From Rhodospirillaceae bacterium (GTDB lineage Bacteria > Pseudomonadota > Alphaproteobacteria > GCA-2731375), in NCBI GenBank assembly GCA_018660265.1, contig JABJKS010000053.1, forward strand, positions 1-35,437: 35,437 nt of DNA. Reading direction: 5' to 3'. Positions 3,356-21,554 of this stretch are shown in pieces. A program made the translations under genes and the position numbers. The number at the start of each line of letters is the position of its first letter. Within the stretch, counting starts at the first letter, position 1. The notes below the pieces were generated by a model. It worked only from the letters and a program-made list of their open reading frames with translations. It searched no databases and was not told the DNA's origin.

Positions 3356-4597
3356 CTAAACAGTGCCTATCGTCGATCCAAGCCAGTTGGCCCAGGTTTC
3401 CATTGCTTGGCGTTTCTCAGGTAAATATCCCCATCGATCATAATGCACGCTGCCCACGTCCGTCATAGCGTGTCCTTGAAGCCGGTTACGGAGTTCGAGG
3501 TCAATGCCTATGGACCCGGCTAGCGTTTTGAAGGTGCGCCGACAGTCCCGTGGTGCGAATGATACGATATCGTTGTTGCAGCAGAACCGGTGAACCGCTT
3601 GATACAGGGCATCTGCTTTGCGAGGCTGAATGAGGTCTTTGTGTGGGTATAGCCATTCGGCATGCTCGGTCGCTGTTCGTACTTGGTTGAGGAGGTCCAG
3701 ATGGAAATCTGTCAGCGGCACTAAGTGTGGTTCCGTCGCATCGTGGCGGTTCTTTCGTCGTTCTGCCGGGATCGTCCACAACCCTTCGGCCAAATCAAAC
3801 TCACGCCAATTGGCTTGGAGAACTTCTTCGACCCGCTGGCCGGTAGCGATCAATAATTTTACAGCCAGATGAGAGGGCAGGGAGATGCTGGTCCCGTGCC
3901 AGACTAAAGCAACTTCTTCAGCGGACAATGACCGCTGGCCGACGGGTTTCCTGCGCACAGCCTTCTTGGTATTGGCAACCGGATTATGTGACAGACAAAA
4001 ATCCGGAACGCGGCCCCGCCACCTGGTCATTGTCCTGGCATGAAGCCCAAATTCAAAGGCCGCACGCAAATACGCCCGGACGTTATCGGCGTGGACCAGG
4101 GCGCCACGCTGAACGATCGGGGTCAGGACATCAAGGATGTCGTCCGTGGTAATGTCGGCGGCGACAGTCCCCCCGATAAACTCATCAATATGCTTGTTGA
4201 AGATGCGTCGGACTTCGGGCGCGGACCGTTTTCTGTCCATTTCAAGGTCGGCAATATAGGCGTCGAACAAGGCGCGCACGTTGGGCCGGGCCGCCAATTC
4301 AACATCGGTTTTGCGGGCCTTCTTGATGGTCTCCTTGGGGTCGACGCCAATTGCCAGTTCATCTCGAAAAGCCTGGGCCTTGCCCCGGGCATCTTTCAGG
4401 CTGGTAGCCGGATAGCGGCCTAGATTGACCTGCGTTCGCTTGCCAGTGGTTGGCGAAGTATAGCCAAGGAAAAAGGTCTTGCTGCCAGCCGGAGCCACCG
4501 CCAGGCCGAAGCCCTTGGCCAGCGAATTGCCGTCGCGCAGGCGATAGACGGACTTGCGCGGTTTGGCGTTCCTTAGGGTGCGATCGGTCAGGGTCAT
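3356..4597 (-). CDS. P4-type tyrosine integrase
   Basis: This is a site-specific tyrosine recombinase of 413 residues, full length for the family. The N-terminal DUF4102-type arm-binding domain (about 1-90: NAKPR, RDGNSLAKGFGL, LGRYPATSLKDAR) is followed by a core-binding domain (about 105-205) and the catalytic domain (about 220-400). Candidate active-site residues are R255 (ATGQRVEE), H291, R353 in PRDCRRTFKT, H376 (LQGHAMTD) and nucleophile Y386 (HYDRWGY). In box II the usual His is replaced by Arg (R350), a variant that I recall from some P4-type integrases. The gene starts 158 bp from a 45-nt copy of the tRNA-fMet 3' end, as expected for tRNA-targeting integrases of genomic islands. It looks intact, so the island could still be excisable if the other attachment site exists. 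Confidence 0.95.
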   Translation of the reverse strand: MTLTDRTLRNAKPRKSVYRLRDGNSLAKGFGLAVAPAGSKTFFLGYTSPTTGKRTQVNLGRYPATSLKDARGKAQAFRDELAIGVDPKETIKKARKTDVELAARPNVRALFDAYIADLEMDRKRSAPEVRRIFNKHIDEFIGGTVAADITTDDILDVLTPIVQRGALVHADNVRAYLRAAFEFGLHARTMTRWRGRVPDFCLSHNPVANTKKAVRRKPVGQRSLSAEEVALVWHGTSISLPSHLAVKLLIATGQRVEEVLQANWREFDLAEGLWTIPAERRKNRHDATEPHLVPLTDFHLDLLNQVRTATEHAEWLYPHKDLIQPRKADALYQAVHRFCCNNDIVSFAPRDCRRTFKTLAGSIGIDLELRNRLQGHAMTDVGSVHYDRWGYLPEKRQAMETWANWLGSTIGTV

Positions 4598-7504: not shown

Positions 7505-9826
7505 CTATAGGCCGTTGATGGCGCGCCAAACTTTTTCCGGTGTTGCGGGCATATCAAGTTCACGGATGCCCAACGGGGCCAGGGCATCTAGCACGGCGCT
7601 GGTCAGGCAGGCGACGGCACCAACCGTCCCGGCTTCGCCCGCACCCTTTATGCCGAGGGGGTTCCTTGGGCTCGGCACCGGGTTTGTCTCGATCTCAAAA
7701 AATGGCACGCTGTCCGCGCGGGGCATGAAGTAATCCATGAATGAGCCGCTGAGAACCTGCCCGGTATCATCCCAGCGAACCTGTTCGCCGAGTATCTGGC
7801 CCGCGCCCTGGACGATGCCGCCATGTAATTGTCCTTTCAACAACATGGGGTTCATCACAGTGCCGACATCATCGACCGCGACATAACGCAGGATTTGGAT
7901 GACCCCCGTTTCAGGGTCAATTTCAATTTCGGCGACATGACAGGCGTTTGGGAATGTCGGCGCCGGACCCTTGAAAGTCGCAAAACCTTGCAGGCCGCTG
8001 TCCATACCCTGGGGCAGTTGTGTCGGATCGAAGGCGATGGCGGCGACATCGGTCAGGCTCAATGATCGATCAGTTCCGACAATTGTGAAGCGGCCGTCAG
8101 CGAATTCGATATCGACTTCGGGCACCTCCAGGCTGTGGGCGGCAATTTGCTGTCCTTTTTGGATAATTTTCTCAGCCGCGCCAAGCAGCGCGCCACTGCC
8201 AAGGCCCGAAACGCGCGAGCCACCTGTGCCATGACCGTAGCCGACCAAGTCCGTATCACCCTGAACGTAGCGCATGGCCTCAAATTCCAGACCAAGTTTT
8301 TCCGACAGCAATTGCCTAAAGACGGTCTCGTGGCCTTGACCATGGGAATGGGTGCCCATGTAGATGGTGGCATGACCCTGTTGGTCGAAACGGATCTCGC
8401 CACCTTCGTCCGACATGCCCGCGGCCTGTTCAATCGCATTGGCAAGACCAAGGCCACGCAATCGGCCATTGCTTTTCGCCTGGGCCCGGCGCGCCTCGAA
8501 ACCGGCGGCATTGGCCATTTCCAGGGCCCGGTCCATGTTGCGCTCAAACTCGCCGCAATCGTAATTGTAGGTAAGCCCGGTTTGGAACGGCATCGCCGTC
8601 GGTGGGATAATATTGCGCCGCCGCAATTCAACACGATCAATGCCAAGTTCCCGGGCCGCCAGATCGATCACTTGCTCAATCGCCGAGGTGGCCTCGGGCC
8701 GGCCGGCACCGCGATAGGGCCCGGTCGGGCTGGTGTTGGTAAAAAGTCCCAGAATTTCACCATGGATTGCAGGTGTTTGATAAACGCCCGCCACGCCGCC
8801 AAAGTTACCAAATGCCGGTAGCGGCCCGAAATTAGACAGATAGGCACCCATGTTGGCAAGGCAGCGAACCCGAAGTGCCAGAAAATGGCCGCTGTTATCG
8901 AGCGCCAGTTCCACATCCATCACCATGTCCCGCGCCTGCTCGTCAAGTATGCTATCCGAACGTTCGTTGGTCCATTTGACGGGTCGTTGCAGTTTCTTCG
9001 CGGCCCAGAGCACCAGGGGGAGTTCGGGAAAGATGTTTGCCCGCAGACCGAAGGAGCCACCCATATCCGGGCTGACAACGCGCAGTTGGCTTTCTGAAAC
9101 CCCTAACACCGCCTCTGTGATCCAGCTTCTCATATCGTGGGGAAACTGGTTGCCTGAGTAGAGCGTATAACGATCTTCATAGGGATCGTATGAACCAAGG
9201 GCGGCACGGGGCTCCATGGGATTGATGGCGACACGCGGCATGGGCAGGGAAAGCCGGGTGACATGATCGGCGGCCTCAAACCCGTTCGCCACGGCAGCCT
9301 TGTCGCCAAGTTCCATGCGGAAACAGATATTGTCCGGGCAGTCCGGCCAAACTGCCGGCGCGCCCGCATCAATGGCCGCCGCCGTGTGGACGTTAAGGGG
9401 CAGCGGTTCATAGTCAACTTCGATCAATTCAGCCGCATCGCGGGCCTGGTCCCGACTTTCCGCCACCACGAATGCAACGTAGTCACCCACGAAGGCAACT
9501 TTGTCCTGTACCAGAGCAGGGCGTGAGGGTTGAAACAACGGCGCGCCATTTGGCCTTTTCAGGGGCACCACTTTGGCAGCAAGACACGGCATATCGCCAA
9601 GGCCGTCGGCGGCAACGTCGGCGCCGGTGTAGACAGCGATAACGCCAGGGGCCAAACGGGCCGCCTCGACATCGATCGAACGAATATGGGCATGGGCATG
9701 GGAAGAGCGCAGCATGTGAGAGTATGCCTGGCCAGCCAGGTTAATATCATCGGTGTAGCGGCCCCCACCACTGAGAAGCCGGGGATCCTCCACTCTCGGT
9801 GCGGCTTGTCCAAGACCAAATTTCAC
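7505..9826 (-). CDS. Molybdopterin-binding large subunit, xanthine dehydrogenase/CoxL family
   Basis: The 773 residues are full length for the catalytic subunit of molybdenum hydroxylases. The a/b hammerhead domain is at about 15-125 (GGGRYTDDI, LRSSHAHAHI), followed by the two molybdopterin-binding domains with DMGGSFG, PTGPYRGAGRPEA, GTHSHGQGHET, GTGGSRV and the catalytic Glu in KGAGEAGTVG (about E731). The loop PYRGAGR is of the form II/other-hydroxylase kind and not the AYXCSFR loop of true CO dehydrogenase, so CO oxidation is unlikely and hydroxylation of an organic ring or aldehyde is more plausible. It starts at GTG 9826. No gene for the FAD subunit (CoxM) or the [2Fe-2S] subunit (CoxS) is adjacent on either side, which is odd because these enzymes normally need both. 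Confidence 0.93.
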   Translation of the reverse strand: MKFGLGQAAPRVEDPRLLSGGGRYTDDINLAGQAYSHMLRSSHAHAHIRSIDVEAARLAPGVIAVYTGADVAADGLGDMPCLAAKVVPLKRPNGAPLFQPSRPALVQDKVAFVGDYVAFVVAESRDQARDAAELIEVDYEPLPLNVHTAAAIDAGAPAVWPDCPDNICFRMELGDKAAVANGFEAADHVTRLSLPMPRVAINPMEPRAALGSYDPYEDRYTLYSGNQFPHDMRSWITEAVLGVSESQLRVVSPDMGGSFGLRANIFPELPLVLWAAKKLQRPVKWTNERSDSILDEQARDMVMDVELALDNSGHFLALRVRCLANMGAYLSNFGPLPAFGNFGGVAGVYQTPAIHGEILGLFTNTSPTGPYRGAGRPEATSAIEQVIDLAARELGIDRVELRRRNIIPPTAMPFQTGLTYNYDCGEFERNMDRALEMANAAGFEARRAQAKSNGRLRGLGLANAIEQAAGMSDEGGEIRFDQQGHATIYMGTHSHGQGHETVFRQLLSEKLGLEFEAMRYVQGDTDLVGYGHGTGGSRVSGLGSGALLGAAEKIIQKGQQIAAHSLEVPEVDIEFADGRFTIVGTDRSLSLTDVAAIAFDPTQLPQGMDSGLQGFATFKGPAPTFPNACHVAEIEIDPETGVIQILRYVAVDDVGTVMNPMLLKGQLHGGIVQGAGQILGEQVRWDDTGQVLSGSFMDYFMPRADSVPFFEIETNPVPSPRNPLGIKGAGEAGTVGAVACLTSAVLDALAPLGIRELDMPATPEKVWRAINGL

Positions 9827-15160: not shown

Positions 15161-16666
15161 CTAATCCGACGCTCGGCTGTTGCTTTGGCTATACCGGGCG
15201 GCAGCTTCGCCGGCGCGTTTGCCGAAGACAGCGCCGGACATGAGGCCGGTGCCGCCGGGATAGTTTTCATAGAATAGTCCACCCACCAGTTCGCCTGCAG
15301 CGAAGAGGCCGGGGATGGATCTGTCTCTTAGGTCCTGGACCGCATTGTTATCGTCGATCTTCAGGCCGCCAAAGGTGAAGGTAACGCCGGTTGTGGTGAC
15401 GAAGGCAGCGTAGGGCGGCTTGTCGATGGGCAGGGCCCAATTGCTTTTAGCGGGATGAATGCCCTTGGTCCCAACACCATCCAGGATCGCCGGATTGTAT
15501 TCGCCGGGCTGGCAGGCTTGGTTATATTGATCGATTGTCTGGCGCAGTTTTGTCGCGTCAATCTCCAGTTCTTCTGCCAGGCCTTCGATGCTATCAGCCT
15601 CCACCTTGGTGACTTCGCGGATGCGGTATTCATCGCGCAGCATGGAAACCGTCTTCTGATCGAAAATCTGCACCGCCGTCCGGTGAGGCTGGGCCATGAT
15701 GGCCTTGCCAAAGCGGACGTAGGTTAGATTGCGGTAGTCCTCCCCCTCGTCCACGAAGCGATCACCGTCCAGGTTGACCATGATGCCCAGGGGATAGGAA
15801 TGTTTCTGGAAATTATCCAACACCCAGCGGTCGCCAAATGGCGGGGCGGAGATATCCCAACCTACCGAATGACAGCCCGACCAGTTGCCGTGAGGCACGG
15901 CACCGATATCGAGCGCCATCTGGATGCCCTCGCCCGTGTTGTGCCGGGTACCGCGAACCCGTGCCAGATCCCAGCCCGGGCCCAGATAACGCACCCGCAT
16001 TTCCGGATTGGATTCAAATCCGCCACAGGCCAGGACAACGGCGCGGCAGGCAATGTCCTGGTAACCATCGGGGCCGCGCACGGTCAGGCCTTTGATGGTG
16101 TAATCCTGGTCCTGGAGGAGTTTGGTGGCACCGGTGCCATAACGGACTTCGACGCCCAGTTTTTTACAGCGCGCTAGCAGGAATTCCACCAAACCAGCAC
16201 CACCGCCCACGGCCTCAATATTCACCCCACCATAGAAATGCTGTTTGCCATCCACTTCGTAGGATTGGCGACCGTACATGGGAATAAAGCGTACGCCATT
16301 TTCCACCATCCAGGCCATTGTGGGGCGGGAGCCGTCGATCAGGGTCCAGGCCAGGGTTTCATCCGCCTGGCCATGGGTCACCTTCATCAGGGTCTCGTAG
16401 AAGAATTGCCGGTTATGAGTGGGCAGGACCATGTTGTCGGCTTCATCATCTGAGAGGTCCACCAGGATATCTGTGCAGACATCCTCCAGGCCGTCGTGGG
16501 CAAAGCGAAAGCCGCCGGCGGTGAAATAGGAATTGCCGCCCTTTTCATCCTCCGGTGCTTTTTCCAGGACCAAGACCTTGGCACCATTTTGATGCGCGGA
16601 AATGGCCGCGCAAAGGGCGGCGTTGCCGGCGCCGACAACGACCACATCAAATTCAACAGCCTGCAT
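15161..16666 (-). CDS. TcuA-like FAD-dependent dehydrogenase
   Basis: This flavoprotein of about 501 residues belongs to the fumarate-reductase/tricarballylate-dehydrogenase family. The N-terminal FAD-binding motif is VVVVGAGNAALCAA with the adenosine-binding acid in VLVLEKAPE. The middle has GGNSYFTAGGFRFA and the substrate domain NLDGDRFVDEGEDY, and the C-terminal FAD part is SIPGLFAAGELVGGLFYENYPGGTGLMSG. TcuA oxidises tricarballylate to cis-aconitate in Salmonella; the TcuB electron-transfer partner is absent here. GGAG six bases before ATG 16666 favours that start over ATG 16681. It lies 34 bp after the TRAP large subunit on the same strand, so import and oxidation of a carboxylate are probably co-expressed. 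The exact substrate is an inference. Confidence 0.9.
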   Translation of the reverse strand: MQAVEFDVVVVGAGNAALCAAISAHQNGAKVLVLEKAPEDEKGGNSYFTAGGFRFAHDGLEDVCTDILVDLSDDEADNMVLPTHNRQFFYETLMKVTHGQADETLAWTLIDGSRPTMAWMVENGVRFIPMYGRQSYEVDGKQHFYGGVNIEAVGGGAGLVEFLLARCKKLGVEVRYGTGATKLLQDQDYTIKGLTVRGPDGYQDIACRAVVLACGGFESNPEMRVRYLGPGWDLARVRGTRHNTGEGIQMALDIGAVPHGNWSGCHSVGWDISAPPFGDRWVLDNFQKHSYPLGIMVNLDGDRFVDEGEDYRNLTYVRFGKAIMAQPHRTAVQIFDQKTVSMLRDEYRIREVTKVEADSIEGLAEELEIDATKLRQTIDQYNQACQPGEYNPAILDGVGTKGIHPAKSNWALPIDKPPYAAFVTTTGVTFTFGGLKIDDNNAVQDLRDRSIPGLFAAGELVGGLFYENYPGGTGLMSGAVFGKRAGEAAARYSQSNSRASD

Positions 16667-16700
16667 TTTACGCTCCGTCATCGTTCATCGTGAAATTGGA

Positions 16701-18008
16701 TTAGCCTTTAAAAGTAATCGTGTTCGGCAGGAAGGTTACAATGTCCGGGAAGACCGCAATGAGTAGCGCCATGGCGCACATGATCAGGAAAAAGGGAATG
16801 GTCGCCTTGGCGATCCGCCCGATACTCTCCCCCGTGAGGCCCTGAATAACAAACAGGTTAAAGCCGACAGGCGGGGTGATTTGCGCCATCTCCACCACGA
16901 TAACGACGAAGATGCCGAACCAGATCTTGTCGAACCCGGCGGCCACGACCAAAGGCAGGGTGATGGGCAGGGTCATGACAATGCTGGATAGGCCATCCAG
17001 AACGCAGCCCAGGACCGCATAAAACGCCAACAACAGCAGGATTAATGCCATGGGGGAAAGTTGCATGGCGGCGATTTCACCGGCGATGGTCCGTGGTACG
17101 CCAAGGAAACCCATGGATACGGACAGGAAGACGGCGCCGGCAACAATCAGGGCGATCATCGACGTGGTCCGTACAGCGCCCAGGCACGATTTGCGAATGG
17201 TCTGCCAATTCAGGGTCCTTTGCCCGGCGGCAACGAGGATGGCACCCAGCACGCCGACGGCTGCCGCTTCGGACGGGCTGGCGAAGCCGCCGTACATGGA
17301 GCCCATGACCAATAAAATCAAAAACACCACAGGACCCAGATCAACCAGACCGACCATACGGTCGCGCCAGGTCGGCTTGCTGTCGTCTTGCGGCACCATG
17401 GAGGGCGTGATCGTGGCGCGAAGGCCCAAATAACCCATATAGCAAAGTGCCAACAGCAGGCCTGGAATAATGCCGGCGATGAAGAGTTTCAGGATCGAAG
17501 TCTCGGACAACACACCGTAGATGATCAGAATGAGAGAGGGCGGGATAAGGAAGCCCAAAGTGCCGGCCCCGGCCAATGATCCCATCACCAGATCTTTGTT
17601 ATAGCCCCGTTGGAACAGTTCCGAGAGGGTAATCCGCCCCACAGTCGCCGCCGTCGCGGCGGAGGAGCCGGAAATTGCCGCGAACAGGGTGCAGGCCAGG
17701 ACGTTGACGTGCAGCATGCGGCCCGGCAGACGGGTGGTCCAGGGCGACAGGCCGTTGAATAACGACGTCGACAGCTTGGTATGGAACAAAATCTCCGCCA
17801 TCAAAATAAACATCGGCAGGGCGACAAGTTCCGGTGTCGTCACCGTATTAAAGGTCAACTGCGCCAGCAATTTGTCCACCGGCATGCTGCGGAACAGGGC
17901 GAGCGAGATAATCGCGACGGAATAAAGTGCCATGCCGACCCAAACGCCGGCACCCAAGGTCAGGACCAAAACTCCCAGTACAGTAATCAAAATGAAGCTT
18001 GCGTCCAT
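16701..18008 (-). CDS. dctM: TRAP transporter large permease subunit DctM
   Basis: The 435-residue integral membrane protein has 11 or more hydrophobic segments and DctM-type signatures: FAAISGSSAATAATVGRITLSE, GTLGFLIPPSLILIIYGVLSETSI, GGFASPSEAAAVG and EMAQITPPVGFNLFVIQG. It is the ion-coupled translocation subunit of a tripartite (TRAP) carboxylate uptake system. The frame is open for a further 160 codons upstream, but the correct start is ATG 18006-18008, whose A is shared with the TAA stop of dctQ (TAATG), giving translational coupling. It is encoded with the TcuA-like flavoprotein just downstream. Confidence 0.96.
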   Translation of the reverse strand: MDASFILITVLGVLVLTLGAGVWVGMALYSVAIISLALFRSMPVDKLLAQLTFNTVTTPELVALPMFILMAEILFHTKLSTSLFNGLSPWTTRLPGRMLHVNVLACTLFAAISGSSAATAATVGRITLSELFQRGYNKDLVMGSLAGAGTLGFLIPPSLILIIYGVLSETSILKLFIAGIIPGLLLALCYMGYLGLRATITPSMVPQDDSKPTWRDRMVGLVDLGPVVFLILLVMGSMYGGFASPSEAAAVGVLGAILVAAGQRTLNWQTIRKSCLGAVRTTSMIALIVAGAVFLSVSMGFLGVPRTIAGEIAAMQLSPMALILLLLAFYAVLGCVLDGLSSIVMTLPITLPLVVAAGFDKIWFGIFVVIVVEMAQITPPVGFNLFVIQGLTGESIGRIAKATIPFFLIMCAMALLIAVFPDIVTFLPNTITFKG

Positions 18009-18526
18009 TATTCGACCTGAAACCCTTCGGACGTATCTTCGGTGGGGGCACCGGTAAAGAGGCGGATCAACCGCGCCAGCAATTGCAGGGCCAAAAGTAG
18101 AGCGCCAAATGAAATGGCCGCCTGCGGGATAGACAAAGGCGTTTCCGAGATTGTCGACGAGACACTGCCCGCGAGGTAGGAGCGCCAGGCCAACTGCCCG
18201 ATGGCAACGGTGATAAAGACGATGATCCCAAGGCCAAACAGGGTACACACCACATCGACCCAATAAGCTGCCCGGGGCGGAATACTCGCCGCCAGAAGGG
18301 AAACCCGAATGTGGCCGCCCGTACGTAGGGTGTATGCCAAGCCGAAAAACATCGAGGTCCCCATGGCATAAGCACTGTATTCCCAGGCGAAACTGAGGCT
18401 GTAATTGAACAGCGACCGGGCGGTGATTTCGCTCAAAATCATCACCGCAATGGATACCATCAACACGGCAGCCACTGCGGCAAACCATTTCGATATGGCA
18501 TCAACAAAGTCGAGAATTTTGGTCAT
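18008..18526 (-). CDS. dctQ: TRAP transporter small permease subunit DctQ
   Basis: The 172-residue membrane protein has four hydrophobic segments, at about residues 13-35, 48-67, 85-112 and 131-155. The family pattern is clear: ITARSLFNYSLSFAWEYSAYAMG followed by LRTGGHIRVSLL. It pairs with DctM in the membrane. Its stop overlaps the dctM start by one base. It is separated from the binding-protein gene by 86 bp that contain a strong hairpin, so it is probably made at lower level than DctP. The ribosome binding site is weak. Confidence 0.95.
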   Translation of the reverse strand: MTKILDFVDAISKWFAAVAAVLMVSIAVMILSEITARSLFNYSLSFAWEYSAYAMGTSMFFGLAYTLRTGGHIRVSLLAASIPPRAAYWVDVVCTLFGLGIIVFITVAIGQLAWRSYLAGSVSSTISETPLSIPQAAISFGALLLALQLLARLIRLFTGAPTEDTSEGFQVE

Positions 18527-18554
18527 GTCCGCCAGAACTACTCAAAACAGACCG

Positions 18555-18585
18555 CCCTCTCCCAACCGATTTGGCCGGGAGAGGG
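18555..18585 (-). terminator. Intercistronic hairpin between dctP and dctQ
   Basis: CCCTCTCCC (18555-18563) and GGGAGAGGG (18577-18585) form a perfect 9-bp GC-rich stem with a 13-nt loop, 28 bp after the dctP stop in the direction of transcription. Without a U-run it is more likely a partial terminator or 3'-end protector, giving more binding protein than permease, as is common in solute-binding-protein operons. Confidence 0.55.
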
Positions 18586-18612
18586 GATGGTCAACGTGTG
18601 ACAAGGTCGTGT

Positions 18613-19641
18613 CTAACCGCCCGATGCCCTGAAGGCTTTGAGGACGTTGGAGGCCGATGCGCCGGTGCTTTTGACATAGTCATCGACAATAGACTTTGTC
18701 CGCATCCGCATATCGTCCATCATCGCATCCGATACCATGCCCATGGCAACGCCATTGTCATTCAAGGTTTTCGACTTGATGTCATCTTCCTCGCTGCTGA
18801 CGGCCCAGAAAACAGGCTCCAACCGTTTGGCCGTGGCCTCAATTGCGGTCCGCTGCGATGCCGTCAAGCCGTTCCAGGCATCAAGATTGACGGCAACGAT
18901 GTTGGAACCCCATACATGGCTGGTCGGGTACATATATTTCAGGAATTCCCAAAACTTTCCGTCCACGCCGGAGCTTGATGACGTGGTCACCGCATCAATG
19001 GTGCCGGCGGCCAAGGAAGGGACAACTTCACCCCAGGGCATCTGCACGGAGGTCATGCCGATCTTATTAAACAGGGCAGTCGTGGATTTACTATAGGTGC
19101 GGATCTTGATGCCCTTAAGGTCGTCGACCTTTGAAATCGGCACCTTCGTGTAAACGTACTGCCGGGGCCATGGCACGTGATAGAGGATTTTAATGTTGTA
19201 TTTCTTGGCCGCTTTGGCCAATTCGGGATCCCATGATTTGTAAAGCTTCTTCAGGCCTTCAAATCCGTTGACCAGATAAGGTTGACCTTCCAGGCCCATG
19301 ATCGGCACTTCACCAACCTGCTGACCCAAATAGAAATCACCGATCGGCACCAGACCGTCGCGCAAAACGGTCATCATCTCTGGGCCCTTAAAGCCGAGGG
19401 AGCCGCCGGGATGAATATTGATATTGATCTCGCCGTTGGTGGCCTTCTTCACTTCAGCGGCGAAGGTTTTGGCGTTTTTCACATGGAAATTTCCATCCGG
19501 CCAGGCCAGGGGCAGATCCCAATCCTTCGCGGACGCTGATGTCGCGCCCATCACGCCGACAGCCCCGATGGCAAAAGCTGTCACGGCTGTCACTGCGGCA
19601 AGGCCCGTCGCCTTAAACCATTTACTCCGTTGGATTGTCAT
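18613..19641 (-). CDS. dctP: TRAP transporter substrate-binding protein DctP
   Basis: The 342-residue periplasmic binding protein begins with a signal peptide: basic WFKATGL, a long Ala/Val-rich core, and probable cleavage after ATSASA at about residue 38. The mature part has the DctP fold marks: HVKNAKTFAAEVKKATNGEININIHPGG, LKGIKIRTYSKSTTALFNKIG with the conserved Arg that holds the substrate carboxylate, MPWGEVVPSLAAGTIDAVTTS, and YMYPTSHVWGSNIVAVN. A strong GGGAGGAAG precedes ATG 19641. It is the first gene of the dctP-dctQ-dctM-tcuA-like unit, divergent from the DUF6282 gene. The substrate is a carboxylate, not identified further. Confidence 0.96.
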   Translation of the reverse strand: MTIQRSKWFKATGLAAVTAVTAFAIGAVGVMGATSASAKDWDLPLAWPDGNFHVKNAKTFAAEVKKATNGEININIHPGGSLGFKGPEMMTVLRDGLVPIGDFYLGQQVGEVPIMGLEGQPYLVNGFEGLKKLYKSWDPELAKAAKKYNIKILYHVPWPRQYVYTKVPISKVDDLKGIKIRTYSKSTTALFNKIGMTSVQMPWGEVVPSLAAGTIDAVTTSSSSGVDGKFWEFLKYMYPTSHVWGSNIVAVNLDAWNGLTASQRTAIEATAKRLEPVFWAVSSEEDDIKSKTLNDNGVAMGMVSDAMMDDMRMRTKSIVDDYVKSTGASASNVLKAFRASGG

Positions 19642-19676
19642 TGCGTCTTCCTCCCAAAATTGTGCCGGACATCGCG

Positions 19677-19770
19677 TTATCCAACAAGCCCGATCTGATT
19701 TGACGTTTTCTTATCCATAATGCTATCCAACTTATGCGCCTTGGGCAATTTACAAATTTTTCGTGGATAA
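19677..19770. promoter_or_regulatory. Divergent promoter region with repeated TATCCA motifs
   Basis: In the 167-bp space between dctP and the DUF6282 gene the motif recurs as TTATCCAAC (19677-19685), TTATCCATA (19711-19719) and CTATCCAAC (19723-19731), and inverted as TGGATAA (19764-19770). TTATCCA and TGGATAA form an inverted pair. These could be half-sites of a regulator acting on both genes; no regulator gene is adjacent. On the minus strand TTGTTG and CACAAT with a 17-bp spacer are a possible dctP promoter overlapping the first copy. Confidence 0.4.
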
Positions 19771-19808
19771 TTTTTGCCGAGCGGGATGCCGATCTGGAGG
19801 ATCTGAAA

Positions 19809-20762
19809 TTGACCAATCACAAACCGCTTCCCCGAGTTGACGATCAAGGCGTGATCGACATGCATGTCCATGTGGGGCCGGAGTTTATCCGCCGCCGATA
19901 CGATCCTTTTACTTTGGCGGAGGAAGCGCGCCGGGAAGGTTTTGGCGTGGTCATGAAGAACCATTTTCAGCCGACCACGGCGTGGGCTTCCCTGGCAACT
20001 GAGGAAGACGATACCGTGCCCCTGGTTGGTTCCATCGCGCTTAACCTTGGCTGTGGTGGCATCGACAGCCATGGCATCCGCTCAGCACTATCGGGTTGGA
20101 AAACAGACACCACGGCATCCGAACCCAGATCGGACCGCTTTGTGGTTTGGATGCCCACGGTATGTGCGGAATCCCATCTCAATCAGTTCGGACGCAGAGA
20201 CATGGATTTAAACTGGGGCGTTGATGAGAAATACACAACCTTTATCGACAAGGGCGAAGGCCTGCAGCTGCGCGACCATTCGGGTGAGATCATTGAAGGG
20301 TTGGGGCGGGCGCTGGACACAATTGCCGAGCACGATTTGGTTCTGGCCAGCGGGCATCTCGCCGGCCCCGACACGCAACTGTTGGTAAAGAACGCACACG
20401 AAGCGGGCGTTCGGCGGATGATCCTGACCCACCCCCTGTGGCATGCGATTGAGCTGTCGCCCGATCAGGTGCGTGATCTTTACAAGGAATATGGGGTCTA
20501 TTCAGAGCTGTGTTATTCGAACCTTGAAATGCATGGTATCGACGACCTGACCATCAACGACTACCTAGAAGTGATCCATGCCGTGGGACCCGAAGGCGTC
20601 ATTCTGTCTTCCGATTGCGGCCAGACGTTTACGCCGACCATCGGGGATTCACTGCGCGAATTTTTTACCCTGTTGCGCCAGGCCGGCATCAGCGACGATG
20701 ACATCACGCAGATGTCGGTCATCAACCCGAACAAACTGCTATTTGGTTCGTTTGGGGATTAG
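19809..20762 (+). CDS. DUF6282 amidohydrolase-like protein
   Basis: The protein has 317 residues when started at TTG 19809, which has a strong GGAGG eight bases upstream. The frame is open back to ATG 19734, but that start lacks a ribosome binding site and the added residues look non-coding. The sequence shows a metal-hydrolase pattern: DMHVHVGPE (HxH) at the N-terminus, then VVMKNHFQP, LASGHLAGP, MILTHPLWH and ILSSDCGQ, which supply the His, His and Asp ligands of the amidohydrolase superfamily. This fits DUF6282, a family without assigned reaction. The gene is divergent from the TRAP operon and converges (12 bp between the stops) with an HpcH/HpaI aldolase, so a role in the same pathway is likely, for instance hydrolysis of a lactone or amide intermediate. 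Confidence 0.85.
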   Translation: MTNHKPLPRVDDQGVIDMHVHVGPEFIRRRYDPFTLAEEARREGFGVVMKNHFQPTTAWASLATEEDDTVPLVGSIALNLGCGGIDSHGIRSALSGWKTDTTASEPRSDRFVVWMPTVCAESHLNQFGRRDMDLNWGVDEKYTTFIDKGEGLQLRDHSGEIIEGLGRALDTIAEHDLVLASGHLAGPDTQLLVKNAHEAGVRRMILTHPLWHAIELSPDQVRDLYKEYGVYSELCYSNLEMHGIDDLTINDYLEVIHAVGPEGVILSSDCGQTFTPTIGDSLREFFTLLRQAGISDDDITQMSVINPNKLLFGSFGD

Positions 20763-20774
20763 TGCGCTAGCGCG

Positions 20775-21554
20775 CTAACCCCCCTCTGCACACGCCACGG
20801 CGCTTTTCCAGGCGGCGCTGACGGCACCTAGATCACTGCCTAGTTCCAGCATGTCGATGCCCAGATCGGCGTATTTCTTGATACTGTCCGGGTCCATGCC
20901 GACCCCCAACGAGATATGTTTGCCGGCCTTGTGGGCCGCTGCTATGGTTTGCCTTATTGCGCTCTGGACCCGTTCGTCATTGGTCTTGGGTTCGCCAAGG
21001 CCAAGGGACATCGAAAAATCGGCCGGTCCAAAAAGGGCGAAATCGATACCATCGACGGCCATGATCTCTTCAATATGATCCATCGCCACGATGTTTTCGA
21101 TCATGATGCCGATCATGGGTTCGCTATCGCTCCACGCCACCCATTCAGGCCCCGCCTTGGCACCCCAACCGGCGGAGAGGCACATGCCGCTGTAACCCCT
21201 GGAACCACGGGGCGCGAATTTGGCGGCGCTGACCACGGCCTCCGCCTCCTCAACGGTACAGATGTCAGGGACAATGATGCCGCCGGCACCGATCTCCAGC
21301 GCCTTGCGGACCAGGTAAGGATCGTCACGATCAATCCGAACAATGGGCACAACGCCCCCTAAAAGCGCTGCGCGGACAAGATGCTCCAGGGCGTCATCCC
21401 GACGCCAGGAATGTTCCGTATCGATACGTATGAAATCCAACCCAGCCTGCCCGGCAACGTCGACCACATATGGGCTCCACGAAAACGCGACTGATCCGGT
21501 TACGCATTGACCGTTGGCCAGTTTGGCACGCAGCTTGTTTGGTGTTAGTTGCAT
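20775..21554 (-). CDS. HpcH/HpaI-family aldolase
   Basis: This class II (metal-dependent) aldolase/citrate-lyase family protein has 259 residues. Conserved residues visible are the catalytic H48 in RIDTEHSW, R73 in PIVRID for binding of the pyruvate carboxylate, the metal ligands E153 (MIENIVAMDHIEEI) and D179 (FGPADFSMSLG), and the GAGGIIVPDI segment. These enzymes cleave 4-hydroxy-2-oxoacids into pyruvate and an aldehyde, typically as the last step of acid or aromatic catabolism. AAGGAGAT precedes ATG 21554. It sits next to the DUF6282 hydrolase and the TRAP/TcuA-like unit, so it may supply the cleavage step of that pathway. An FNR-type box lies 85 bp upstream. Confidence 0.94.
   Translation of the reverse strand: MQLTPNKLRAKLANGQCVTGSVAFSWSPYVVDVAGQAGLDFIRIDTEHSWRRDDALEHLVRAALLGGVVPIVRIDRDDPYLVRKALEIGAGGIIVPDICTVEEAEAVVSAAKFAPRGSRGYSGMCLSAGWGAKAGPEWVAWSDSEPMIGIMIENIVAMDHIEEIMAVDGIDFALFGPADFSMSLGLGEPKTNDERVQSAIRQTIAAAHKAGKHISLGVGMDPDSIKKYADLGIDMLELGSDLGAVSAAWKSAVACAEGG

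Follow-up and report, generated by a model that had tools for sequence, protein, structure and literature searches.

A DUF6282 gene divergent to a pyroglutamate-type TRAP importer in a Rhodospirillaceae bacterium: a candidate pair for uptake and hydrolysis of a cyclic acid

Uptake of 5-oxoproline (pyroglutamate) by tripartite ATP-independent periplasmic (TRAP) importers is already in print. According to PMC13274462, crystal structures with bound 5-oxoproline have been obtained for the Bordetella pertussis solute-binding proteins DctP6 and DctP7, the KD (dissociation constant) is 0.3 uM for DctP7, and a 5-oxoprolinase gene lies nearby; PMC5812351 and PMC11574862 also name 5-oxoproline as ligand, and the latter presents Trp and Tyr as prominent in the DctP6/7 site. 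As set out below, the usual gene neighbours of DctP proteins of this type are HyuAB and PxpABC. Here we analysed a stretch of 35,437 nucleotides, called the window, from a Rhodospirillaceae bacterium (assembly GCA_018660265.1, contig JABJKS010000053.1), in which the genes of a TRAP importer with this type of DctP, dctPQM, stand divergent to a gene of DUF6282, a family that Pfam lists as of unknown function and that no paper found in our literature search names.

We tentatively propose, with somewhat less than even confidence, that the divergent pair dctPQM/DUF6282 is a functional unit, made of an importer of a ring acid and a metal-dependent hydrolase of the imported compound. The substrate of the TRAP importer would be a small carboxylic acid with a ring, of the 5-oxoproline or hydantoin type, and DUF6282, a putative metal-dependent enzyme of the amidohydrolase superfamily, would hydrolyse it as a cyclic amide, imide, ester or N-acyl amide. 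DUF6282 occupies the gene slot given to HyuA of the ATP-dependent HyuAB in two genomes of the same family, a TcuA-like gene would have been recruited behind dctM in the window lineage, and an aldolase gene of the HpcH family would be a neighbour. We observed the gene content, the DctP type, the neighbourhood statistics, the presence of the conserved pair in a second genome and the metal-site residues, and from these we infer the substrate class and the DUF6282 reaction. Genes were called from a list of open reading frames (ORFs), followed by Pfam and NCBIfam profile scans of ten neighbouring proteins in the window, which belongs to a genome (G000) of 5.55 Mb that is 97% complete. The elements of the pair are:

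16701-18011, minus strand: dctM, TRAP large permease (PF06808 266.6 bits, TIGR00786 343.2)
18008-18526, minus strand: dctQ, TRAP small permease (PF04290 83.9 bits)
18613-19641, minus strand: dctP, TRAP solute-binding protein, pyroglutamate type by sequence (PF03480 142.7 bits)
19642-19808, no strand: dctP/DUF6282 divergent intergenic region, bounded by the corrected DUF6282 start
19809-20762 (longest ORF from 19734), plus strand: DUF6282 gene, predicted amidohydrolase-like TIM (triosephosphate isomerase) barrel (PF19799 160.6 bits, cut-off 26.8)

By its sequence the window DctP belongs to the pyroglutamate-binding group. Its best three matches in the PDB were 2pfz (8.9e-46), 6wgm (1.5e-44) and 2pfy (2.5e-44), followed by 4p47 (2.3e-26). 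We take all three to be pyroglutamate-bound structures, with 2pfy and 2pfz presumably being DctP6 and DctP7 of B. pertussis, and they share an LY..(P/A)WP.Q block with the window protein. This block (Y154/P157/W158/P159/Q161) is common to 22-24 of 24 window-type DctPs (the window, its congener locus L010, 16 homologous loci and 6 plasmids) and to 0-1 of 9 control DctPs; Y154 was found in all 24 and W158 in 22, and neither was found in any control. The block may line the ligand pocket. The window differs from the described members of this subfamily in that no oxoprolinase or hydantoinase gene adjoins dctP, and DUF6282 is found in the divergent slot.

The neighbourhoods of homologous dctP genes give a second clue to the substrate. 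When the class was sampled, a window-type DctP at E 1e-80 occurred in 16 of the 385 genomes drawn, that of the window among them, and with the addition of G392, of the same family, 16 DctP loci were opened besides the window and L010; matches in the order at G387:C4, G392:C118, G394:C9 and a fragment at G392:C40 were left unopened. Ring-opening genes, either HyuA or PxpABC, lay near dctP in 11 of the 16 loci: HyuA in nine (L103-L106, L108, L109, L112, L113 and L116), accompanied by HyuB in eight, the contig of L104 stopping within HyuA, and PxpABC in two (L110 and L111). Among plasmid homologues, six of ten matches were opened, and three had pxp or hyu genes and three had none. As a control we used 18 genomes, those of 15 of the DctP loci plus G000, G387 and G390, where 150 of 307 DctP and 150 of 242 HyuA matches were listed; after removal of five window-type proteins, 5 of the 145 other listed DctPs lay within 7 kb of a listed HyuA. 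Among the matches listed, HyuA is thus enriched near window-type DctP (Fisher p 1e-7, or 1e-5 when scaled for unlisted HyuA). In two loci of the window's own family, L103 and L104, whose DctPs are 54% and 73% identical to that of the window, HyuA lies divergent to dctP, in the slot that DUF6282 holds in the window. No Hyu or Pxp gene was found beside the window dctP by the ORF and Pfam scan of its neighbours. The preliminary description of this DNA had passed over this partnership of a pyroglutamate-type DctP with HyuAB or PxpABC, which is the best clue to the substrate.

The pair is conserved beyond the window. A search of G000 found one DUF6282 gene, and matches occurred in 3 of 15 genomes of the order: G000, its congener G387 and, as a weak partial match of 58.8 bits, G067. 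In G387 (L010), dctPQM stands divergent to DUF6282 in the same arrangement, with identities of 94% for DctM, 83% for DctQ, 87% for DctP and 87% for DUF6282. The ratios of non-synonymous to synonymous change (dN/dS) are 0.041, 0.103, 0.050 and 0.040, respectively; since dS is 0.97-1.73 and dN/dS nonetheless 0.04-0.10, the importer genes and DUF6282 alike have been maintained. The flanks differ between the two genomes, and neither TcuA nor HpcH was found within the 19 kb read around the L010 pair. Seven loci with close DUF6282 orthologues, L010-L016, of 52-87% identity, were collected, L013 and L016 representing a single locus as it occurs in two species of Aminobacter. An importer gene adjoins DUF6282 in all eight close-group loci, the window included: TRAP in the window and L010, Liv-type ATP-binding cassette (ABC) in L011, L014 and L015, and major facilitator superfamily (MFS) in L012, L013 and L016. 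DUF6282 of L015 is flanked on one side by a gene of the RidA family and on the other, at a distance of 0.6 kb, by an ORF for a Liv-type binding protein. Among the ORFs read, no enzyme gene common to the close loci was seen.

DUF6282 more likely starts at TTG 19809, giving 317 aa, than at 19734. A GGAGG lies 8 nt upstream of this TTG, in the congener copy the same block precedes a GTG start codon, several orthologues start at the matching position, and the first 28 residues encoded by the longer ORF are modelled with a predicted local distance difference test score (pLDDT) below 50. With this start the divergent gap is 167 bp, not 92. The protein passed the cut-off of its own Pfam family and matched no other, and its sequence found just two PDB matches, at E 0.2-0.3. 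Its predicted structure is a barrel of the amidohydrolase type (pLDDT 70.9; predicted template modelling score, pTM, 0.76). The 50 best matches in a structure search were TatD, PTER N-acetyltaurine amidohydrolase, phosphotriesterase/lactonase and similar proteins (VIA Z 17.7-18.7), and Foldseek aligned the model with lactonases at E 3e-7. Of 34 DUF6282 proteins, 31-34 retain each of the HxH motif, K75, H77, H208, H233 and D294; the window copy has every one of them, so that it looks enzymatically competent. The TIM-barrel fold and the His/Asp set (HxH, H208, H233 and D294) are those of the amidohydrolase superfamily, from whose known features we take this set to bind metal. To our knowledge, such a conserved Lys and His at the end of strand 2 (K75 and H77) is unusual in that superfamily. 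What sets the window DUF6282 apart from HyuAB and PxpABC is that it has no Pfam match outside its own family and the predicted fold of a TIM barrel.

Several observations weigh against the proposed unit. The pair is known from just two genomes of one genus, and in one of them, L010, the DUF6282 gene (8018-9026) has one extra base just behind the HxH motif, which splits it over two frames; this could be a sequencing error in a metagenome-assembled genome or a recent break, both being possible. Confidence in the DUF6282 model is moderate at the scores given. Importers of other kinds accompany the rest of the close DUF6282 genes, so that the link to this TRAP is not general. Conversely, DUF6282 was found in none of the 16 homologous DctP loci and none of the six plasmid ones, and five of the 16 (L107, L114, L115, L117 and L118) lack Hyu and Pxp genes as well. 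A HyuA 68% identical to the dctP-linked HyuA of L104 is encoded at G000:C13, one of 24 Hydantoinase_A matches in this genome, another of which (C37) lies in an ORF of 1229 aa, the length of the fused type. HyuA being still encoded in G000, DUF6282 need not replace it. Finally, PMC13274462 puts the Keq (equilibrium constant) of ATP-free 5-oxoproline hydrolysis at about 0.035; because the reaction is uphill, 5-oxoproline itself is an unlikely substrate of DUF6282.

HpcH was likewise absent from all 22 DctP loci (16 and 6 plasmid), and because neither DUF6282 nor HpcH occurs in any of the 22, the pairing of DUF6282 with this DctP is a local variant, not a rule. Our idea that HyuAB had been lost from G000 was weakened by the close HyuA that it still encodes. 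A large expansion of Hydantoinase_A, with 22-34 matches each, was seen in G000, G387, G390, G067 and G289. An ATP-free 5-oxoprolinase from Alcaligenes faecalis is described in PMC13274462 and PMC8453981, so that ATP-free ring hydrolysis has a precedent. Given the retained HyuA and the uphill equilibrium, it is more likely either that the substrate of DUF6282 is a ring or amide whose opening is energetically downhill or that the importer serves HyuAB in trans.

The second of these options leads to an alternative that we regard as possible but rather doubtful, namely that dctPQM is a plain 5-oxoproline importer, with HyuAB or a fused 5-oxoprolinase acting in trans, and that DUF6282, TcuA and HpcH have unrelated jobs. 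The HyuA at C13 and the 1229-aa ORF at C37 would provide the enzyme, four congeners that lack the window DctP retain this HyuA at 66-67% identity, TcuA and HpcH are not conserved with the pair, and DUF6282 is missing from the 16 DctP loci. Against such independence stand a divergent TRAP/DUF6282 arrangement that is under strong purifying selection in two genomes with differing flanks, and an importer beside DUF6282 at eight of eight close loci.

The proposed pair must also be set against its larger surroundings. The preliminary description had placed the TRAP importer and a TcuA-like gene on one strand, with DUF6282 divergent and an HpcH/HpaI gene convergent, and the ORFs and the Pfam and NCBIfam matches bear out this layout of six genes, in which dctP, dctQ, dctM and tcuA-like follow one another along the minus strand. 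The remaining elements are:

15161-16681, minus strand: tcuA-like FAD dehydrogenase gene (NF006130 561.8 bits, cut-off 369)
18555-18585, minus strand: stem-loop of 13 pairs in the dctP-dctQ interval (pattern scan)
20754-20783, no strand: hairpin spanning the stop codons of DUF6282 and hpcH (-19.3 kcal/mol, z -1.7)
20775-21554, minus strand: HpcH/HpaI-family aldolase gene, convergent (PF03328 89.6 bits, cut-off 25)

From this order the preliminary description had suggested a pathway for one acid, with uptake, oxidation by the TcuA-like FAD protein, hydrolysis by DUF6282 and release of pyruvate by HpcH. A carboxylate importer does stand beside catabolic enzymes, but the clades of the proteins and the poor conservation of TcuA and HpcH speak against the window genes as that module, which we consider quite improbable. 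In its favour, the tcuA-like gene lies just 19 bp behind dctM, a gap that makes its cotranscription with the TRAP genes probable. TcuA or HpcH was nevertheless found at none of the seven close DUF6282 loci, and neither HpcH nor a TcuA above 25% identity at any of the 16 DctP loci; furthermore, hpcH is convergent and not cotranscribed.

Of two TcuA equivalog models for the tricarballylate system TcuABC, the TcuA-like protein passes the cut-off of one (NF006130) but not that of the other (TIGR02485, 263.7 bits under a cut-off of 372.55). Unlike in TcuABC, the adjoining importer is TRAP and not TcuC, and no TcuB above cut-off is encoded in G000. The absence of TcuB, already pointed out in the preliminary description, extends beyond the locus: TIGR02484 exceeded its cut-off in none of seven genomes (G000 and six relatives), with one weak partial match in G000. 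No MFS protein was among the ten neighbours scanned, and the genome was not searched for TcuC. TcuA orthologues of 71-94% identity are located elsewhere in G390, G393, G394 and G359, where they adjoin other genes; these four genomes have no DUF6282 and no DctP above 30% identity at E 1e-40. TcuA was therefore rejected as an obligate member, since its orthologues occur without DUF6282, HpcH or a window-type DctP.

The surroundings of these orthologues vary. In G390 (L082:3-2244) the 94% orthologue comes after a gene of the dihydrodipicolinate synthase (DHDPS) family (DapA-type, PF00701), in L083 the orthologue lies beside an MmgE/PrpD gene, and a HyuA-like gene is found within the 19 kb of L084. 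DHDPS genes recur in L112, together with dctP and HyuAB, and in L119, together with dctP and pxp genes. In G053 (L023:9036-11539) a distant DUF6282 is divergent to a TcuA-like gene, with 177 bp between the matches and a HyuB-like gene 4.5 kb away. The DHDPS neighbours in L082 and L112 and the divergent TcuA-like gene in L023 can be read in favour of the four-step pathway.

The same holds at first sight for HpcH. Among 36 DUF6282 loci (7 close, 7 from a class search and 22 from plasmids, the latter being those examined of 46 plasmid records with DUF6282; L019, at the same place as L010, and L020, the weak partial match in G067, lie outside this set), we counted neighbours within 6 kb. HpcH was found at 13 loci (close 0/7, class 3/7, plasmid 10/22), a TRAP permease at 12 (1/7, 2/7 and 9/22) and TcuA at one (class, L023; none at close or plasmid loci). 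Because DUF6282 does co-occur with HpcH and TRAP genes, the association on which the preliminary description had staked its module exists at family level; it fails at the close orthologues, with no HpcH and no TcuA at seven loci. All 13 HpcH-linked DUF6282 genes are among the 29 more distant loci, and in a tree of 34 rows (L010, L016 and L024, the last a short contig, being absent) they fall on one branch (support 0.948) that also holds L021, L023 and L034, whereas that of the window sits apart from them in a clade shared with L011-L015 (support 1.000).

Operons of DUF6282 and HpcH, often with TRAP genes, on the plasmids of Gemmobacter, Paracoccus, Agrobacterium, Leisingera and others are the described arrangement closest in families. 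The window nevertheless differs from them, as none of its DUF6282, HpcH and DctP falls in the same clade or type as theirs, the DctPs of those modules lack the Y154-Q161 block, and DUF6282 and HpcH, convergent in the window, are codirectional in 10 of the 13 loci. The window HpcH belongs to the PF03328 family and has H48, R73, E153 and D179, invariant in 28 of 28 aligned proteins and presumably catalytic. It falls below the equivalog cut-offs of HpaI, GarL and RhmA (TIGR02311 124.8/368.8, NF007849 117.7/393, TIGR03239 112.6/406.75 and NF007521 105.5/441). A first tree had joined it to the DUF6282-linked HpcHs (0.988), which made HpcH a candidate member of the unit; this was overturned after L129-L133 were added and two antisense ORFs, L042 and L048, were removed. 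It now groups with L129 (56% identity, ultrafast bootstrap 100) and then with L132 and L133 (95), so that the new partners have support of 95-100. No DUF6282 was found at L129, L132 or L133, L129 being a short contig of 6.7 kb. In another HpcH locus, L131:4083-12857 (G370), an HpcH 38% identical to the window's is clustered with HyuA, HyuB, an RraA-family gene and a TRAP importer, some of these names being taken from translations; our literature search found no paper linking HpcH, a TRAP transporter and hydantoinase.

The distant operons raise a further alternative, that DUF6282 is a lactonase or hydratase preparing a 4-hydroxy-2-oxo acid for the aldolase, with the window HpcH convergently recruited. 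Consistent with it are the DUF6282-HpcH operons, three of which have a succinate-semialdehyde dehydrogenase, a gene row on a Thermus plasmid that combines DUF6282 with a PIG-L deacetylase and 4-carboxy-4-hydroxy-2-oxoadipate (CHA) aldolase, and the lactonases among the nearest folds. We nonetheless hold it to be unlikely for the window, whose DUF6282 belongs to a distinct clade (support 1.000) with no HpcH at its seven other loci.

The three operons (L035, L036 and L067, on Agrobacterium, Roseateles and Gemmobacter plasmids) recur as a dihydroorotate-dehydrogenase-like flavoprotein, DUF6282, HpcH, a cupin and an NAD-dependent succinate-semialdehyde dehydrogenase; two of them also contain TRAP genes. 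This recurrent combination of DUF6282 and HpcH with the flavoprotein and the dehydrogenase looks like a genuine, coherent catabolic module, distinct from that of the window. On the Thermus oshimai plasmid pTHEOS01 (L029:7321-11005), GntR, DUF6282, PIG-L deacetylase, 4-carboxy-4-hydroxy-2-oxoadipate aldolase and a dehydrogenase are consecutive and adjoin 4-hydroxybenzoate hydroxylase and ring-cleavage genes, and this DUF6282 may take part in a pathway that cleaves aromatic rings. A PIG-L gene also adjoins DUF6282 in Alicyclobacillus (L037).

The non-coding features say little about a unit. The 12 bp that, as described before, separate the stops of DUF6282 and hpcH (20763-20774) lie inside the hairpin, which 11 of 200 shuffles equalled; it is possibly an ordinary shared terminator, statistically weak and no evidence of a unit. 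The stem-loop pattern occurs at 9 sites in the region and at 8.4 in shuffles, so that the number is no evidence, and the single promoter-like site in the dctP/DUF6282 interval, 19742-19771 (plus strand), is not above chance; in the pattern scan, promoter and terminator patterns were no commoner than in shuffles. An integrase-like gene lies at 3356-4597, about 10.5 kb from the cluster, with an integrase-domain model below its cut-off, and no tRNA was found in the window.

The pairing of DUF6282 with a pyroglutamate-type importer appears to be a new variant. A wider version of our proposal would make DUF6282 of the window clade an ATP-independent metallohydrolase that stands in for HyuAB on an imported compound like pyroglutamate or hydantoin, with the TcuA-like protein and HpcH carrying the breakdown on to pyruvate. 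This seems to us improbable; if true, it would be an unrecorded route for the breakdown of a cyclic acid. For DUF6282 itself, the outcome is a testable substrate class rather than a demonstrated pathway, since the pairing narrows the candidate substrates of the family member in this bacterium to 5-oxoproline analogues, hydantoins, dihydropyrimidines, cyclic imides and lactones.

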